From the NCBI RefSeq assembly GCF_001887775.1, contig NZ_CP015519.1, positions 2,232,001 through 2,296,000 of the forward strand: 64,000 nt of DNA, written 5' to 3'. Within the stretch, counting starts at the first letter, position 1. Every line of letters begins with the position of its first letter. The notes beneath the pieces are model-generated. The model was not told the origin of the DNA and did not search any database. It saw nothing but the letters and a program-made list of their open reading frames with translations. Origin of the DNA: Syntrophotalea acetylenivorans. GTDB taxonomy: Bacteria; Desulfobacterota; Desulfuromonadia; Desulfuromonadales; Syntrophotaleaceae. The position numbers and the translations under genes are program-made. This document shows, in pieces, positions 1,782 through 54,314 of the stretch.

Positions 1782-1911
1782 CACTTGAATTCTAAGACCT
1801 TACCAGACTCGAAGCTTAGCGAATGAGCATGGTGTCCCCTGAACCCCTGTGAATTCAAATGGCTACAGACGAAAGCCGCCAGCTCTGCCATGCTCATGCT
1901 GCCAACTTCTT

Positions 1912-2250
1912 TCACAACGGCTTCCCTTTTTGCCTTGGACGCCGCCGTGACATGGTAAGGCGATTCCTTTCGGCCTCGGGATAAAAGCTCAGCGCTTTTT
2001 CCAGAAGGCTTTTCAGCTCTGCCAAAAATGGATAGCGCGGATCGAACGCATAGAGCCGCGTATTGCCGATCATGCGGCTGTACACCACCCTGCCGGCCTC
2101 CAGCTTCTCGAACTGATTCTGGATCGCCCGCAGATCGGTGGCATAGAACTTGGCCACTTACCGCGGATAACCCTCTTCACGCGCCAGCAGATACAGCAAC
2201 ACCCGTTCCCTGTTGATTGTTCCGAACAATGCCTCTAACACAACCTTCAC
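1912..2250 (-). pseudogene. winged-helix DNA-binding protein broken by an in-frame stop
   Basis: Read on the minus strand from a GTG near 2241 or 2250, the frame gives VLEALFGTINRERVLLYLL, then EEGYPR, a TAA stop, and then VAKFYATDLRAIQNQFEKLE and onward to KGKPL. The two halves are in the same frame. Together they match the small HTH proteins that start with LxALFG and end in a PRYPFLxEL tail, often associated with nucleotidyltransferase or toxin-antitoxin neighbours. At the break (codon about 2157-2159) homologues normally have Glu or another residue, so a single substitution to TAA explains it. The part after the stop (81 codons) has its own ATG or GTG-like restart but would lack the first helix. 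No intact partner is adjacent. Remnant of an accessory regulator is the best reading. Confidence 0.55.
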
Positions 2251-2275
2251 CCGACGGAATTTTTACGTTATTTGA

Positions 2276-2512
2276 CGTAGTTTTTTAGTCACTATAGACA
2301 ATAGGCAGTATCTTTGCAGGCATCCGTTTCCTCGCATTGTCGAATTCAGGGAAGGCAGAGGGGGGGGCAGTGAGCACGACTGGACCAGACTGCTTGCTCC
2401 GGATTTATCTTGCCTGAGCCAGACGGTCAAACAACTGGAATTGCCTGCCAAAAAGGATTATAGTCTGGAGCATTTGCTTGAGGTGGTACAGGGGAAAATT
2501 CTTACCTGTTAA
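2276..2512 (+). pseudogene. short open frame without a start, possible gene remnant
   Basis: An open stretch of 78 codons ends at TAA 2510-2512. Its C-terminal half (for example DYSLEHLLEVVQGKIL) has protein-like composition with regular hydrophobic spacing. There is no ATG and no ribosome binding site, and a run of eight G near 2360 could mark an indel. I do not recognise a family. Its position next to the broken winged-helix gene suggests that both are leftovers of one decayed accessory locus. It could equally be chance open reading. Confidence 0.2.
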
Positions 2513-2561
2513 ACCTGTCCCCAGCACCCTTTTTTGAATTATGCTTTCAGGAGAATTTTAT

Positions 2562-2666
2562 ATGAAACATATGGCGCTTTTGATCTTGGGTTTTCTTATT
2601 ACAGTCTTGCTTTCAGGGTGCGGTATCCCGGACCTTCCTGGCCCTATCGGAATCCCTGGGCTTTAA
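2562..2666 (+). CDS. 34-residue predicted lipoprotein
   Basis: A very short gene: ATG with AGGAG eight bases upstream, then a charged start (MKH), a hydrophobic stretch (about residues 4-17), the lipobox LLSGC and a Gly/Pro-rich tail ending PIGIPGL. After signal peptidase II cleavage at Cys19 only about 16 residues would remain on the lipid anchor. A strong bidirectional terminator follows within 50 bases, which supports a real transcription unit. Small lipoproteins with this kind of tail are common but of unknown function. Could be a chance ORF, but the ribosome binding site, lipobox and terminator argue for a gene. Confidence 0.6.
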   Translation: MKHMALLILGFLITVLLSGCGIPDLPGPIGIPGL

Positions 2667-2713
2667 AAAGAATTGCGCAAGATTGCCAGCTTTCTATATT
2701 AAGAAATGAACCC

Positions 2714-2760
2714 AACAAACAAAAAGACCTCCCATTTACCGGGAGGTCTTTTTGTTTGTT
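2714..2760. terminator. strong bidirectional intrinsic terminator
   Basis: A 20-bp perfect stem (2714-2733 with 2741-2760) closes on the 7-base loop ATTTACC. The core AAAAAGACCTCCC/GGGAGGTCTTTTT supplies U-runs in both directions. It ends the small lipoprotein transcript. The following 250 bases up to the next gene are AT-rich and show no gene. Confidence 0.85.
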
Positions 2761-3007
2761 TTTGCAGAACAATGCAAAGGCAGTGACAGCATGGTCCCTG
2801 ATGTCTTAGCTGTGCCCTTTTGATGATTCGGAAAAATTCTGCGCCTGCGACTGAAAACATCCATTGGAGAATATGAAAAACCTATCGCCATTCAGTTTTC
2901 TGATTTTTCTCTTTTATATCGTAATAGATATATGTTTATATTAATGACTTTCCAATCACTTTTTCTGCCAACTTATCAAAACGAGGGGCTCCGGCTCATT
3001 TTTTCAT

Positions 3008-35808: not shown

Positions 35809-36133
35809 ACTACATAAAAGTGTGAAAATAACAGGACAGAATATATAATTAATCCACAACCATATAAACAGGTGTGGATAAATAATGTTGCCATGCTGCA
35901 ACAGCTTATTTATGCTAGTGTCCCGTGGGGAAAAAAGAGGTTTCAAACTATCAAAGGCCCCTTCCTTTTGCAAGAAAATTTTGGATCGGGATGGCGCTCT
36001 TATAACGCCGGTTCAAGGACTTTCTTATGATTCATGCTTGACAAAAAAATTTGAACGTGGTTAATAATGCGATTCGTTAAATTTCCTTGTTACCGTTTCC
36101 TGAGGATAAAAATAAGCTACAGAGGAGATACAA
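35809..36133. other. candidate origin of replication (oriC), dnaA-rpmH gap
   Basis: 325 bases without a gene between the divergent dnaA and rpmH. It contains a perfect DnaA box, TGTGGATAA (35873-35881, TTATCCACA on the minus strand), a near match TAATCCACA (35850-35858), and an adjacent AT-rich tract ATATATAATTAAT that could unwind. Genes run away from it on both sides, as expected for a bidirectional origin. Number and spacing of boxes are modest, so other boxes in the dnaA-dnaN gap may be needed. Confidence 0.65.
36038..36067 (+). promoter_or_regulatory. sigma70-type promoter for rpmH
   Basis: TTGACA (36038-36043), a perfect -35 box, then 17 bases to TTAATA or 18 to TAATAA as -10. It sits 66 bases before the rpmH start and should drive rpmH-rnpA-yidD-yidC. 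Confidence 0.7.
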
Positions 36134-36286
36134 ATGTCCAAGAGAACCTATCAGCCCAGCAGAATCCGTAGAAAAAGAACCCACGGCTTTCGTGCCCGGA
36201 TGCAAAGCAAAAACGGCCGTTCTGTTATTCGGCGTCGTCGTGCCCGTGGTCGCAATAAGTTGGTTGTAACTATTCCCACTAAATAG
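36134..36286 (+). CDS. rpmH: 50S ribosomal protein L34
   Basis: 50 residues, starting [19 protein letters not shown] and ending in a very basic tail ([13 protein letters not shown]). This is the standard L34 sequence. AGAGGAG lies upstream of the ATG. First of the rpmH-rnpA-yidD-yidC cluster, and 8 bases separate it from rnpA. Confidence 0.98.
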
Positions 36287-36294
36287 TTAAGTAT

Positions 36295-36636
36295 ATGGGT
36301 AGCGGCACTTATTCTTTTCCCAAAGAGCGTCATCTGCGAAAATCTATTGATTTTCAGCGGGTGCGGCAAGGGGGAAAGCGCCGGCACACACCCAGCTTTA
36401 TCGTTGTAACTTTACATCGATCGAACAGCCTCACTCGCCTTGGACTGACCGTTAGTCGTAAGGTTGGTGGGGCTGTTCAGCGCAATCGGGTAAAGCGATT
36501 AGTGAGAGAATTTTTTCGCAACCATATCAATAGGTTGCCGGCTGATATCGATATATCGATTGTTGCCAAGGTGGGCGCAGCCGATCTAAGTTATGTTCGG
36601 GTTTGTGAGGAATTGATGTTTTTGGTAGAAAAATAA
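36295..36636 (+). CDS. rnpA: ribonuclease P protein component
   Basis: 113 residues, typical length. Signature [20 protein letters not shown], the RNR motif that binds P RNA. It helps the catalytic RNA process tRNA 5' ends. It begins 8 bases after rpmH and likely shares its promoter. Confidence 0.97.
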
Positions 36637-36652
36637 CCAAGGCGATCCCATC

Positions 36653-36862
36653 ATGCTGCAAAAAGCGGTACTCGCTCTATTAACGTTCTATCAGCGATTT
36701 ATTTCACCTCTTAAGGCACCTTCCTGCCGGTTTTATCCCAGCTGTTCCAGTTATGCCTATGAGGCGGTAGCCAAATACGGAGTTTTACGAGGGCTTTTTA
36801 AAACCGCCGTCCGTCTCGGACGTTGTCATCCCTTCCATCCAGGCGGCTACGACCCTGTTTAA
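36653..36862 (+). CDS. yidD: membrane protein insertion efficiency factor YidD
   Basis: 69 residues with the family core [27 protein letters not shown] (three cysteines) and the ending [11 protein letters not shown]. YidD is a small peripheral inner-membrane protein that aids YidC-dependent insertion. 16 bases after rnpA and 42 bases before yidC. Confidence 0.96.
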
Positions 36863-36904
36863 CACTCTGCTGCAATCGCCAGCTGACAAACGGAGATTTT
36901 TCAA

Positions 36905-42803: not shown

Positions 42804-43568
42804 ATGGCACAGATTATTGCCGTGGCCAACCAAAAGGGTGGGGTCGGAAAAACCACGACGGCGATCAACCTTGCCGCCTCACTGGCCGCAGCAGAGCAGC
42901 AGACCCTCCTTGTCGACCTGGACCCTCAAGCCAATGCCAGCAGTGGCGTAGGGCTCGATCGCTCTACTTTAAAGTATACGACTTACCACGCTTTATTGGG
43001 AGAGGCCAAGGCCAGTGATGTTGTTTGTAATACGCCGTTAAGCTGCTTGCAGATTTTGCCGGCGACGGCCGATCTTATCGGAGCCGAAATCGAGCTCGTC
43101 TCGGAGCCAAACCGGGAAACCCGTCTGCGCACAGCCCTTTCTGAAATATCTAATAATTACAAATACATAGTGATAGATTGTCCACCTTCTTTGGGGCTGC
43201 TTACCATCAATGCCTTAACTGCCGCCGATTCCGTATTGGTGCCTTTGCAGTGTGAGTATTACGCCATGGAAGGGCTTACTCAATTAAGCAAGACCATTCG
43301 CTTGATTCAGCGTCAACTGAATCCAGATCTTGTTTTAAAGGGGATTCTGCTGACTATGTTTGACCGGCGCAATAATTTGTCTCATCAGGTCAGTGAGGAA
43401 ATACGTCGCCATTATAGCGACAGGGTGTTTGACACGGTTATTCCTCGCAATGTCCGGCTTTCTGAAGCGCCCAGTCATGGTTTGCCGGTATTACTGTACG
43501 ACATAGCATCCACAGGGGCGGCAGCCTATCTGTCCCTGGCTAAAGAAATTATCTCAACGGGGAATTAG
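42804..43568 (+). CDS. parA: chromosome-partitioning ATPase ParA (Soj)
   Basis: 254 residues. Deviant Walker A KGGVGKTTTAINLA with the signature lysine near the start, LVDLDPQANAS and IDCPPSLGLLT. ATP-bound dimers coat the nucleoid and move ParB-parS complexes. The next gene parB begins 2 bases after its stop. Ribosome binding site AAGGAAGCC. Confidence 0.98.
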   Translation: MAQIIAVANQKGGVGKTTTAINLAASLAAAEQQTLLVDLDPQANASSGVGLDRSTLKYTTYHALLGEAKASDVVCNTPLSCLQILPATADLIGAEIELVSEPNRETRLRTALSEISNNYKYIVIDCPPSLGLLTINALTAADSVLVPLQCEYYAMEGLTQLSKTIRLIQRQLNPDLVLKGILLTMFDRRNNLSHQVSEEIRRHYSDRVFDTVIPRNVRLSEAPSHGLPVLLYDIASTGAAAYLSLAKEIISTGN

Positions 43569-43570
43569 AT

Positions 43571-44422
43571 ATGGCCAAAAGACCTGCTCTCGGAAAAGGT
43601 ATCGGGGCACTGTTGACTTCGGCAAGCGAAGATGACGGGCGAAAGTATTTCCTGTGTCCCATAGAGGAGCTGCGACCTCATGATCAGCAGCCTCGTAAGT
43701 CTTTTGATGATGCCAAAATGACCGAACTGGTCGCATCGGTGCGGGAAAAAGGGATTATTCAACCGCTGGTGGTGCGCCGGATGGACGATCATTATCAGAT
43801 CATTGCCGGAGAGCGCCGTTGGAGAGCGGCCCAAAAGGCCTCACTTCATGAAGTTCCCGTAGTTATTCAGGATGTTACCGAGGATATGGCCTATGAAATG
43901 GCCATTATCGAAAACATTCAGCGAGAAGACCTCAACCCCATCGAAGAGGCCGAAGCTTATCGCCAGTTGATCGATCGATTTGAGTTAACTCAGGAGGTCG
44001 CAGCCAAGCGGGTCGGCAAGGACCGATCCTCGGTGGCCAATTCCATGCGTCTTCTGAGATTGCCAACCATCGTCCAAAACGATGTGGTTACCGGAGCGCT
44101 TTCAATGGGCCATGCGAGGGCCCTGCTCTCTTTGGAGGATGCCCAGGACATTCTCGAAGCCCGGGAGCAACTGTTAATTAAAAAGTTGTCAGTTCGTGAA
44201 ACTGAGTCTCTGGTTCGGAAAATCAAGAACTTTGCTCACCAGCCAAAAAAACCAGCAAAACCGCAACCCGACCCTGAATTGCAATATTTGGCCGAAGAAT
44301 TGCAAAGATCCCTTGGCACTCATGTGTCGATTCATTCAAAGAAAAAGGGTGGAAAGATCGAGATCAGTTATTTTTCTGCTGAGGACTTAGATCGCCTGTT
44401 AGAACTCTTAGGCGTTTCGTGA
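43571..44422 (+). CDS. parB: chromosome-partitioning protein ParB
   Basis: 283 residues. N-terminal ParA-activating Lys/Arg segment (MAKRPALGKGIGALL), CTP-binding ParB/Srx domain with GERRWRAA and ENIQREDLNPIEEAEAY, HTH with QEVAAKRVGKDRSSVANS, and the C-terminal dimer domain. It is a CTPase clamp that loads at parS (present at 39993-40008) and recruits SMC. Confidence 0.98.
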   Translation: MAKRPALGKGIGALLTSASEDDGRKYFLCPIEELRPHDQQPRKSFDDAKMTELVASVREKGIIQPLVVRRMDDHYQIIAGERRWRAAQKASLHEVPVVIQDVTEDMAYEMAIIENIQREDLNPIEEAEAYRQLIDRFELTQEVAAKRVGKDRSSVANSMRLLRLPTIVQNDVVTGALSMGHARALLSLEDAQDILEAREQLLIKKLSVRETESLVRKIKNFAHQPKKPAKPQPDPELQYLAEELQRSLGTHVSIHSKKKGGKIEISYFSAEDLDRLLELLGVS

Positions 44423-44434
44423 GGATTTGAGAGA

Positions 44435-44832
44435 ATGAAGGGGAGGAAGGACAAAACGGTTATGCGCAAAGATGCGGCAGCGGATAAAATCAAGGCTTTT
44501 TTGGGGCCGGCAGTCAGTTTGAGGGGACCCTGGTATTTGAAGACATCGTCCGTATGGATGGTACATTCAATGGCAAGATTACCTCAAAGGATACGTTGAT
44601 CGTTGGCGAGTCGGCTCATATCGAGGCCGATATTTCAGTAGGCACTTTGATCCTCAGTGGTCGTTTCAAGGGGCAAGTTACAGCGAATGTTCGCGTGGAA
44701 TTGCGTGCTCCGGCTCAAGTGGAAGGGTCCATTAACACCCCCTCCCTGGTTGTAGAAGAGGGAGTGTTAATGAATAGTACCGTTTCAATGGGGCCAGCCC
44801 AGCCTCTGGCGACAGCGGATATCCCTGAGTAG
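44435..44832 (+). CDS. bactofilin with a reading-frame break near residue 24
   Basis: The protein starts at ATG 44435 (or 44462, each with a GGAGG-like site) as MRKDAAADKIKAFLG, then the frame is lost. The rest, GSQFEGTLVFEDIVRMDGTF and onward (NTPSLVVEEGVLM), continues in the -1 frame to 44832. Combined it is a normal about 132-residue bactofilin, a beta-helical cytoskeletal polymer for cell shape and polar organisation, often next to parAB. At the break lies T TTT TTG (44497-44503), an exact -1 slippery heptamer in the right phase, or alternatively one G was lost from the following G-run. The zero frame ends at a TGA near 44597. An intact short reading from ATG 44554 lacks the N-terminus. 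Confidence 0.8.
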
Positions 44833-44867
44833 CTAGCGGCCGAATTCGAACTTTATAGAAAAAGGGA

Positions 44868-44897
44868 TTGACAAGAGTCAGTCGCCTATTGTTATAT
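44868..44897 (+). promoter_or_regulatory. promoter for the main atp operon
   Basis: TTGACA (44868-44873), 18 bases, TTATAT (44892-44897). It lies in the 312-base gap before atpF', which holds no gene. The gap also carries a nested hairpin (CCGGTTCCTGAAACCGG, about 45057-45073) that could act on translation or attenuation. Confidence 0.6.
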
Positions 44898-45144
44898 TTG
44901 CGGTCGCCGTCCGGGTTGTTTACACTGCGGCTCTTTTGGAGTAATTTCCTCAAAATGGCTAAGAGGACGATTCAAGCGGGCTTTCCATTTCGCTCGTTGT
45001 TTCTCGGGCAATGATCGATAGTTTTTATTGCTGACCGATTTTTAACGCCTGCTTGCGCCGGTTCCTGAAACCGGAGGTCTGAAAGCAGGTTCTGTCCCAA
45101 GACAAATCATTGTTGAATTACTTTCATGTCTTTGAGGTATTGCT

Positions 45145-51126: not shown

Positions 51127-52335
51127 ATGAATCGCAGCATTATCCATCTTGATCTCGATGCATTCTATGCTTCCGTCGAACAGCAGGATGATCCGCAACT
51201 GCGGGGCTTGCCCGTACTGGTTGGAGGTCGTTCCGGTCGTGGGGTGGTCTGTGCCTGTTCCTATGAAGCTCGGCGCTTCGGTATACACTCCGCCATGCCC
51301 ATGACCAGGGCGCTCCGACTATGCCCCAAGGCTGTGGTGCGGCCGGTGCGCATGGAACGCTATCGCCAATTTTCACAACAGGTTTTTGCGATTTTCTCGC
51401 GCTTTACAGACCGTATCGAACCTCTCTCTCTTGATGAAGCCTTTCTCGATGTCAGCGGTTGTGAACGCCTGTTCGGTACACCGGTTCAGATCGCCGCCCA
51501 GATCAAGGAGGCGGTTTTCCAGGAGACCGGTTTGACTATCAGCGCCGGGGTGGCGGAGAATAAGTTTCTGGCCAAGCTGGCTTCGGATCATCAGAAGCCC
51601 GATGGTCTCTACGTGGTTCCACAACCACCGGACCGTTTTCTGTTGCCCTTGCCTCTTAAGCGCTTATGGGGGGTAGGCCCGGTTACCTGTCAGCGCTTGG
51701 AAAAGCTGGGACTTCGCACTGTTGCCGACTTGCGCCAACTAAGTGAAGCTCGTCTGGAACAGCTTTTCGATAGCGCAGGACGGCAGCTCTACCGTCTGGC
51801 CCGGGGCGAGGACTCCCGTCCGGTAATCGTTGCAAACAGAGCCCATTCCATCGGTCATGAGGATACCTACGATCATGACTTGCAGGATTCTTTTCAGTTG
51901 CATCGGTCGCTGCTCGACCTTGCAGAGCGGGTGGCGACACGATTGAGGAGAAAGGGGCTGGCCGGAAGCGTGGTTCAGCTCAAAGTTCGCTACGCCGACT
52001 TTACCACCGTTACCCGTCGCCGCACTGTCGAACCTCCCCTCGATTCAGCACTTGCTATTCTTCAGGTAGCAAAGGAGCTGCTTCTACGTACCGATGCCGG
52101 AGAGCGGCCCGTAAGGCTGCTCGGTATCAGCCTTAGTCAATTGCGGGACGGGCCCGAAGTTCAGGGGGAACTATTTGGCGATGAACAGAGAGAGAGGGTT
52201 TCAGCCCTCGATGGTGCGGTGGATCAGTTGCGGCGACGTTATGGTGTCAAGGGGGTGCAAAGGGCCAGCTTGATGACAGGGGATAAAAACGAATCAGAGG
52301 CGAAAACGGGGGGCGATGGTTGGGATGGCTCTTAA
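51127..52335 (+). CDS. dinB: DNA polymerase IV (Y-family)
   Basis: 402 residues. Catalytic acids in LDLDAFYASVEQ and SLDEAFLD, and an HhH-type WGVGPVT. A beta-clamp binding motif QGELF lies near residues 355-360, followed by a hydrophilic tail. Performs error-prone lesion bypass and would bind the dnaN clamp. The last 42 bases overlap the 3' end of the convergent next gene. Confidence 0.96.
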   Translation: MNRSIIHLDLDAFYASVEQQDDPQLRGLPVLVGGRSGRGVVCACSYEARRFGIHSAMPMTRALRLCPKAVVRPVRMERYRQFSQQVFAIFSRFTDRIEPLSLDEAFLDVSGCERLFGTPVQIAAQIKEAVFQETGLTISAGVAENKFLAKLASDHQKPDGLYVVPQPPDRFLLPLPLKRLWGVGPVTCQRLEKLGLRTVADLRQLSEARLEQLFDSAGRQLYRLARGEDSRPVIVANRAHSIGHEDTYDHDLQDSFQLHRSLLDLAERVATRLRRKGLAGSVVQLKVRYADFTTVTRRRTVEPPLDSALAILQVAKELLLRTDAGERPVRLLGISLSQLRDGPEVQGELFGDEQRERVSALDGAVDQLRRRYGVKGVQRASLMTGDKNESEAKTGGDGWDGS

Positions 52336-54069
52336 CAGAGACTTCTGGTTGTGAACTTCCAGGGTGGCAGTGGGGCGAAGGTTCCGCTGATCGAGCTCAT
52401 GAAATAGCCCGGAAAAATCGGCGCTGCCCTCACCGGCAGCCAGGTGGGCGTCTCGGTCGCCATGGTTATCATGCAGATGCAGGTGATGCAGGTGTGAGCC
52501 GAGGGCGTTGAACCACTCTTCCAGGCTGCCCTTACCAAAAAGGTGCCAGTGACCGATGTCGAAGCAGTGACCCAGCCAGGGTGAATTGATTTCATCCAGC
52601 AGGGCTTGCAGGTTTTCGGGGTATTCCTCAAAAATATTTTCCAGGGCCAAGCGACATTTTTGCTCCTCCGCCTGGGCGATGAGCTCGGGCCAGAAGCGAA
52701 GGCTGGCTTCTATCCACAGTTCGTTGCGGTCGCCGTAATGCCAGCGGAAAAAGCCGGGGTGAAAGACGATTTGGCGGGCCTTTAGCAGCCCGGCGAACAG
52801 CAGGGTACGATCGAAGCGGCGGCGGGTCGCATCTCGAACCAACGGATCGATGGCGCCGGGATTGAGATCCATGAAAGGGGCATGTACGGTGACCGCCAGC
52901 CCGGCATCGGCCAGCTTTCGGCTCCATTCGCCCAGTTCGGCCGGTGAACGGTCCAGGTCGAACCACTTAAAGGCGATCTCCGGTTGCAGACGCTGTTCGA
53001 TGAGCAGAGGCAGTAATTCTTCAAACTGACCGCAGGGGACATGGACATGTAAACGGTCATTCATGACATTAACCCCCGCGGCGACTTGCTCAAGCTTCTG
53101 AATGGCCGGAGGTTCGCCGATGGTGATCAACACATCTTCGACTTCAATGGAAGTGGTCGATTCGGGATTAAACATCATCTGGCCGTTATTTTTCTTGATG
53201 GCAATGATCATGATTCCCCAGTCGCGGCGCATACCGGAGGAGATCAGGGTCTTATCGATAAGCACCGAGCCGGGAGCTACGCGAATCTCTTCCAGCTGCA
53301 ATTCGAGATTCTGGCTGCCAACGGCGATATCGATGAAATCCACCACCGATGGTCGCAGCACTGCCCAGGCCATCCGGCTGGCGCCGATTTTATAAGGCGA
53401 GATTACCTTGGTGGCTCCGGCACGGATCAGTTTCTTTTCAGTGCCTTCTTCGCCACAGCGGGCAAGGATGAAGAGGTCGGGGTTGAGGCCGCGGGCCGTG
53501 AGGGTGATATAGACATTGGCTGTTTCCGAATCGACCGCGGTGATCAAGCCCTTTGCCCGTTGGATACCGGCTTCAATCAATGCTTCGTCATCTGTGGCGT
53601 CACCCTGCACAAAAAGAGTACCCTCGGCGGCAAGTGCTTCGCAGATCTCCGGGTCCCGTTCCACGACCACGAAAGGCACCGGCCGAGAACGAAATTCGCT
53701 GCTGATCAGGGTGCCGATACGGCCATAACCGCAGATGATGTAGTGACCCTGGAGTTTGTCGATCTGCTTGACCAATTTTTTCCTCCCCAGAATGGTTCGC
53801 AACTGCCCTTCCACCATGAACTGCAGCAGGCTGCCGACGGCATAAGCGATGATGCCGGCACCGAAAATGATGAGCAGAACGGTAAAGAAGCGTCCGTGAT
53901 CGGATAAGGGATGCACCTCCCTGAAGCCGACAGTGGCCAGGGTGATGACCGTCATGTAAAGGGCATCGAAAAGCCCCCAGCCTTCGATCAAGGCATAACC
54001 GACGGTGCCCAGGCCGATGGTGGCAACTACGATAAACAGGGATAAGCGCAGGCGGCGAACCGGGTTCAT
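52294..54069 (-). CDS. K+ channel + RCK + TIM-barrel hydrolase/isomerase fusion
   Basis: 591 residues from the ATG with CCGGAGAAATC. Residues 1-95 are a two-helix channel with filter TVGF at 46-49 (then Arg instead of the common Gly). An RCK/TrkA-N domain (about 108-235) has the Rossmann motif ICGYGRIG, then TrkA-C (about 245-325). From Met336 (NDRLHVHVP) onward is an AP-endonuclease-2/xylose-isomerase-like TIM barrel with metal-ligand motifs HAPF, FHPG, ENIFE, CFDIGHW and HLHDNHGDRDAHL. The barrel resembles proteins related to CbiR, a cobamide-remodelling hydrolase, but this is tentative. Homologues I know are separate neighbours; here no stop separates them. An internal start at 53064 (256-residue product) with GGGGG 7-11 bases upstream is possible. 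Confidence 0.85.
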   Translation of the reverse strand: MNPVRRLRLSLFIVVATIGLGTVGYALIEGWGLFDALYMTVITLATVGFREVHPLSDHGRFFTVLLIIFGAGIIAYAVGSLLQFMVEGQLRTILGRKKLVKQIDKLQGHYIICGYGRIGTLISSEFRSRPVPFVVVERDPEICEALAAEGTLFVQGDATDDEALIEAGIQRAKGLITAVDSETANVYITLTARGLNPDLFILARCGEEGTEKKLIRAGATKVISPYKIGASRMAWAVLRPSVVDFIDIAVGSQNLELQLEEIRVAPGSVLIDKTLISSGMRRDWGIMIIAIKKNNGQMMFNPESTTSIEVEDVLITIGEPPAIQKLEQVAAGVNVMNDRLHVHVPCGQFEELLPLLIEQRLQPEIAFKWFDLDRSPAELGEWSRKLADAGLAVTVHAPFMDLNPGAIDPLVRDATRRRFDRTLLFAGLLKARQIVFHPGFFRWHYGDRNELWIEASLRFWPELIAQAEEQKCRLALENIFEEYPENLQALLDEINSPWLGHCFDIGHWHLFGKGSLEEWFNALGSHLHHLHLHDNHGDRDAHLAAGEGSADFSGLFHELDQRNLRPTATLEVHNQKSLLRAIPTIAPRFRL

Positions 54070-54314
54070 GATTTCTCCGGTAATCAAGGATATTGGGATG
54101 ATAGCGTTCCGGCCGGTAAAAGGCAAGAGAGGAAGAAAGGCCGGAGAGTTGGCGAGGGAAAGATCTTGACATGGTTGTATTGCTTCCTGCACTTCAACCG
54201 TCTGCCGGGTAAGGTTCCCTTTGCCTGGAGACCCTATCTGATGCTAATGTGAACATTTACTGATAGGTACTGTTTGGTACCCCGTTTATCCACCTGGAGC
54301 AGGCTCGCCTAAAT

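Follow-up and report, generated by a model that had tools for sequence, protein, structure and literature searches.

Why does the bactofilin gene of Syntrophotalea acetylenivorans lie in two reading frames? The gene is in a 64,000-nucleotide stretch of DNA (the window), which comprises positions 2232001 to 2296000 of a genome that is a single contig of 3,218,469 bases. The genome is rated as 99.99% complete. A sequence-only reading reported that the frame changes at about 44503 and that a slippery heptamer, T TTT TTG, is placed so that a -1 slip would restore the frame. It suggested either that frameshifting is programmed or that one G is missing through mutation or sequencing error. We argue that the break is very probably a homopolymer error in the assembly.

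Results

The bactofilin gene is split at a junction of two homopolymers

Both the sequence and the open reading frames (ORFs) confirm the frame change, at the coordinates that had been reported, and the heptamer at 44497-44503 is indeed phased for a -1 slip. Read directly, the sequence has six T (44497-44502) and then four G (44503-44506). The frame changes within this T6-G4 stretch (44497-44506), and in the assembly bactofilin has no continuous frame but is split at 44503 (Table 1). Translation may begin at ATG 44462 or at the earlier ATG 44435. The -1-frame segment matches the bactofilin family of Pfam (PF04519; E = 2.5e-25, 89 bits, cut-off 27.9) over profile positions 5-97 of 98, and no NCBIfam model matched this segment at 1e-5.

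We rejected the idea that the genome has an intact bactofilin paralogue: genome-wide, a single place is above the Pfam cut-off, and the second (E = 0.0088) is under it. No plasmid matched in a search with 44300-45000. Elsewhere in the 64-kb window, no ORF of at least 120 amino acids was kept in 1782-3007 (1226 bases) or in 35974-36904 (931 bases). The window has no RNA families at the Rfam gathering score and no tRNAs by ARAGORN.

Table 1. Features of the bactofilin locus, in window coordinates, and other places where the sampled genome is one base short at a run of G. Families of the genes on L043, L044, and L045 (two genes) were assigned from the copies in the same-genus genome G002.
Feature	Position	Strand	Details and basis
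parA	42804-43568		name from ORF translation, not from family search
parB	43571-44422		name from ORF translation, not from family search
bactofilin gene			downstream of parA and parB; sequence and ORF list
alternative earlier start, ATG 44435	44435-44461	+	in-frame, short N-terminal extension; sequence
zero-frame bactofilin N-terminus	44462-44506	+	MRKDAAADKIKAFLG; in a single frame with the core in relatives
T TTT TTG heptamer	44497-44503	+	Ala-Phe-Leu codons, phased for -1 slip; sequence
run of 4 G in bactofilin	44503-44506	+	five G in G002; alignment with G002
bactofilin core and C-terminus, -1 frame	44503-44832	+	109 aa and stop; begins GAGSQFEGTLVF
zero-frame continuation	44504-44599	+	outside the family, to TGA 44597-44599; sequence
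junction of two-gene fusion	53073-53077	-	run of five G, one base fewer than G002
efflux outer-membrane protein (TIGR01845)	L043, near 10770		run of 5 G, six in G002
ABC transporter	L044, near 11226		run of 5 G
aspartase-like enzyme (NF008909)	L045, near 11217		run of 7 G
NuoF-like, below model cut-off	L045, near 16843		run of 5 G

Relatives have a single frame and seldom the heptamer

We searched 58 genomes (this one included) for bactofilin at a threshold of E = 1e-10. There were matches in 48 of them and none in the other 10, and no matched stretch has an internal stop. We could read the junction in 30 relatives, namely 29 with returned loci plus a close relative, L034 (MAXR01000065.1, Desulfuromonadales bacterium C00003068). 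(The stretches read from L032, L033, and L035 duplicate those of G004, G002, and G001, respectively, and were left out of the count.) In all 29, (K/R)AFLG leads into the core in one frame, and the 17 preceding codons are free of stops; with L034, the frame is single in 30 of 30.

The heptamer is not conserved at these homologous loci. It is present in just two of the 30, L021 and L034 (GCT TTT TTG in the latter), and both have unbroken frames that need no slip. Within the genus, G001 and G002 have G TTT TTG at this site and G004 has G TTT CTG, while G003 gave a short partial match alone. So the three same-genus genomes that could be compared encode bactofilin in a single frame without the heptamer, which contradicts the earlier suggestion of programmed frameshifting. 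Because relatives vary at this site and their frames are intact, the heptamer appears to be one spelling of Ala-Phe-Leu and not a frameshift site that has been kept; most likely, it is incidental. We found no second assembly of this species, in collections that have one genome per species and may omit such records.

The heptamer is common, nearby folds do not surpass shuffles, and the gene is under selection

We counted T TTT TTG in 691 ORFs that each span 120 or more amino acids (720 kb in all), which are mechanical calls and not curated genes, from 864 kb of the genome (the window and 40 other stretches). There are 42 copies in the slippery phase, three of which continue into GGG within open ORFs, and 54 and 14 copies in the two remaining phases. 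The heptamer is not above chance expectation in the sampled genome. Given the 42 in-phase copies, and another in the unbroken gene of L034, its presence in bactofilin is unremarkable.

Three stretches that begin at or just before the G-run folded no better than shuffled sequences (z = -0.02, 0.52, and -0.69), with a tool that does not model pseudoknots. A fourth, 44462-44540, folded worse than shuffles (z = 2.15).

Over the first 90 core codons, comparisons to G001, G002, G004, and L034 gave pN of 0.039-0.049, pS of 0.51-0.66, and dN/dS of 0.031-0.047. Among those four genomes themselves, dN/dS is 0.018-0.061. Pairs at greater distance are partly saturated. We therefore reject relaxed selection: bactofilin is under strong purifying selection and has no sign of decay.

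One-base losses at runs of G recur in the sampled genome

We compared the 864 kb of the sampled genome to 594 kb of G002. Counterparts were found for 151 genes of G002 (161 kb, with a median identity of 85%) and, in the reverse direction, for 153 genes. Once rows from spacers, start regions, and poor alignments were dropped, seven frame events remained in the roughly 161 kb of comparable genes. In six of the seven, the sampled genome is one base short at a coding-strand run of 4-7 G, so the kind of loss seen in bactofilin recurs at other runs in the same genome. The search with G002 genes found bactofilin, the efflux outer-membrane protein, the ABC transporter, and the aspartase-like enzyme, and the reverse search found the NuoF-like gene and the two-gene fusion at 53073-53077. 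The reverse search found no G-run breaks in G002.

The fusion is a 632-amino-acid ORF (52294-54192, minus strand) made of a potassium-channel/TrkA-N-like part and a CbiR-like part, neither of which reaches the cut-off. In G002, these parts are separate genes: their frames differ, and a stop lies between the two. Most likely, the fusion is the same kind of fault as the break in bactofilin.

Runs of at least four G make up 1.35% of the coding bases. The chance that six of six events would be at such runs is about 6e-12, a figure that ignores the seventh event, the flanking bases, and the dropping of rows. In that event (L098 14476-16524, compared to L110), a run among the first 24 codons has four A here but three in G002; either genome may be at fault or may have truly changed.

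Which base is missing? The aligner sets the gap in bactofilin before the T-run. We place the loss in the G-run because only a loss there preserves the conserved Leu codon, and the missing base is most likely a G at 44503-44506. Across the six events, G002 has a longer unbroken run of G for bactofilin (five) and the efflux protein (six) only. For the remaining four, other bases interrupt the run in G002, so the lost base is presumably G. The loss of one base, as the sequence-only reading proposed, is thus supported by five further events at runs of G, and that the base was a G is probable.

The spectrum of run lengths gives a fainter and less consistent signal. There are 7 G/C runs of at least 8 bases in the 864 kb here and 19 in the 594 kb of G002, with 66 and 43 such A/T runs (Fisher P = 0.002). 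Runs of 6 point in this direction as well, with counts of 172 and 142 for G/C and 784 and 472 for A/T (P = 0.014). G/C runs of 7 show no depletion (36 here, 21 in G002, P = 0.32), and the result for runs of 5 is not significant (P = 0.08). For runs of 4, the counts are 3767 and 2698 for G/C and 5743 and 3715 for A/T (Fisher P = 0.002). Because G/C runs of 4 differ from A/T too, composition may contribute.

How the events were counted

Which rows to drop was our judgement from the printed alignments. The search with G002 genes flagged six genes, and we dropped two whose frame change falls at or before what is probably the true start: the L063 gene at 1095-2102 (parB) and the L102 gene at 1836-2837 (compared to L089). 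The reverse search flagged three, namely the fusion in the window, the NuoF-like gene, and L098 (compared to L110). The NuoF-like break came first from a looser screen of stop-to-stop ORFs, whose other matches, largely antisense or in spacers, are uncounted.

A repeat at the DNA level (144 genes, 157 kb) flagged 12 genes: the same four, and eight that we dropped. Dropped as near or upstream of the start were L063 1095-2102; L102 1836-2837, 2877-4382, 9760-10605, and 14171-14842; and L105 10442-13933. L109 1154-1633 and L110 2891-3388 were dropped as poor alignments. This repeat did not recover the NuoF-like gene or the fusion. We think that the split gene scored below another copy and that the fused gene was missed as two genes in G002. 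In the best alignments, in-frame stops appeared for 4 of 144 G002 genes against this genome and for 9 of 144 in the reverse direction. Such stops are thus no less frequent with G002 as the target, which does not favor a fault in this genome, and several of these cases resemble ORFs on the wrong strand or upstream extensions.

Discussion

We are fairly sure that the frame break in bactofilin is an error of the assembly at a homopolymer. The assembly would be missing one base, reading T6-G4 in place of the expected T6-G5, and the gene would otherwise be an ordinary bactofilin gene of a Desulfuromonadales-like bacterium. The loss of a single base at a homopolymer, probably in the G part of T6-G4, explains the difference in frame from the relatives. 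We favor a sequencing error over novel decoding because one-base losses at runs of G recur in other genes. And we favor an assembly error because these losses are repeated, the affected genes are conserved and partly metabolic, and bactofilin is undecayed. We infer that these events arose as errors, not as mutations, and that they stem from long reads. The five other events at runs of G thus narrow the earlier choice between mutation and sequencing error toward the latter.

Comparable cases have been described. Homopolymer indel errors are documented in nanopore assemblies (PMC9262707), where single-base losses split or fuse genes, as happens repeatedly in the one-contig genome here. A difference is that other runs of similar length are kept here. 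According to a survey of frame transitions in prokaryotes, isolated breaks that are validated by BLASTp are expected to be sequencing errors and not genuine indels (PMC3711429); neither bactofilin nor DUF583 turned up when its main text was searched for these terms. A split bactofilin, perhaps of another cause, is known from a different phylum: in PMC11219805, Deinococcus radiodurans BAA-816 has bactofilin as DR_2572/DR_2573, while ATCC 13939K has one gene. There, two genes of one assembly correspond to a single gene of the other. More broadly, our gene matches the profile of the bactofilin family (PF04519), a polymer-forming cytoskeletal protein, and is split in this assembly but not in the 30 relatives.

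A recent and real one-base deletion, which would make the gene a young pseudogene or reflect polymorphism within the population that was sampled, seems unlikely to us. It is true that the break stands in the deposited sequence, that homopolymers are natural sites of slippage, and that real slippage mutations also favor them. Also, several of the other events fall where the relative has no matching run of G, and therefore the lengths of the runs cannot be compared directly there. But dN/dS for bactofilin shows no relaxed selection, and five other events have the same form, the NuoF-like and aspartase-like genes among them. This many recent losses of single bases within roughly 161 kb would be surprising in such a complete genome.

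We find it very hard to believe that programmed -1 ribosomal frameshifting at T TTT TTG produces full-length bactofilin together with a 45-amino-acid product from ATG 44462. The perfect phasing of the heptamer and the continuation of conserved family sequence in the -1 frame would suit this idea. However, relatives with the heptamer (L021 and L034) do without a slip and all 30 are in a single frame, folds at or after the site are no better than shuffles (pseudoknots aside), in-phase copies of the heptamer are common in long ORFs, and breaks of the same form occur at other runs of G in this genome without T TTT TTG. A variant of this idea is that a -1 frameshift is specific to this lineage and was gained when a base was lost beside a pre-existing T TTT TTG, so that the bactofilin gene next to parAB stays alive and both short and full-length bactofilin are made; we consider this to be just as improbable. 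It is more improbable still that transcriptional slippage on T6-G4 brings some of the mRNA back into frame. There is a homopolymer in the right place, but T6-G4 is not conserved in relatives, and six T and four G would be short for slippage by the polymerase.

Known frameshift sites also differ from this one. The dnaX gene has a programmed -1 frameshift at an X_XXY_YYZ heptamer. As described in part of a study in E. coli, so do genes of the IS1 and IS3 families (PMC4066793). The bactofilin heptamer shares their phase, but we found neither conservation nor, pseudoknots aside, a stimulatory fold, it is not listed with the efficient E. coli motifs, and the relatives are intact. In the same part of that study, the most efficient bacterial motifs include H_HH.U_UU.Y (ending in C or U), whereas U_UU.U_UU.G is listed under a eukaryotic system and not among the efficient E. 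coli motifs; most heptamers are shifty to some degree. Background frameshifting in the constructs of that study is about 0.04-0.07%. We also rejected a reported frameshift as a precedent for bactofilin, as the relevant part of that report concerns flhO (PMC9103452).

If programmed frameshifting were real here, it would be the first case in bactofilin that we know of from a limited search of the literature. Under the reading that we prefer, an assembly error, the living gene would be read in one frame and give a normal bactofilin. The wider message is one of caution: one-base losses at runs of G recur, and they split or fuse genes in the sampled genome sequence. Because these losses recur, other apparent pseudogenes, frameshifts, and fusions in this genome need to be checked against relatives before they are given biological meaning.
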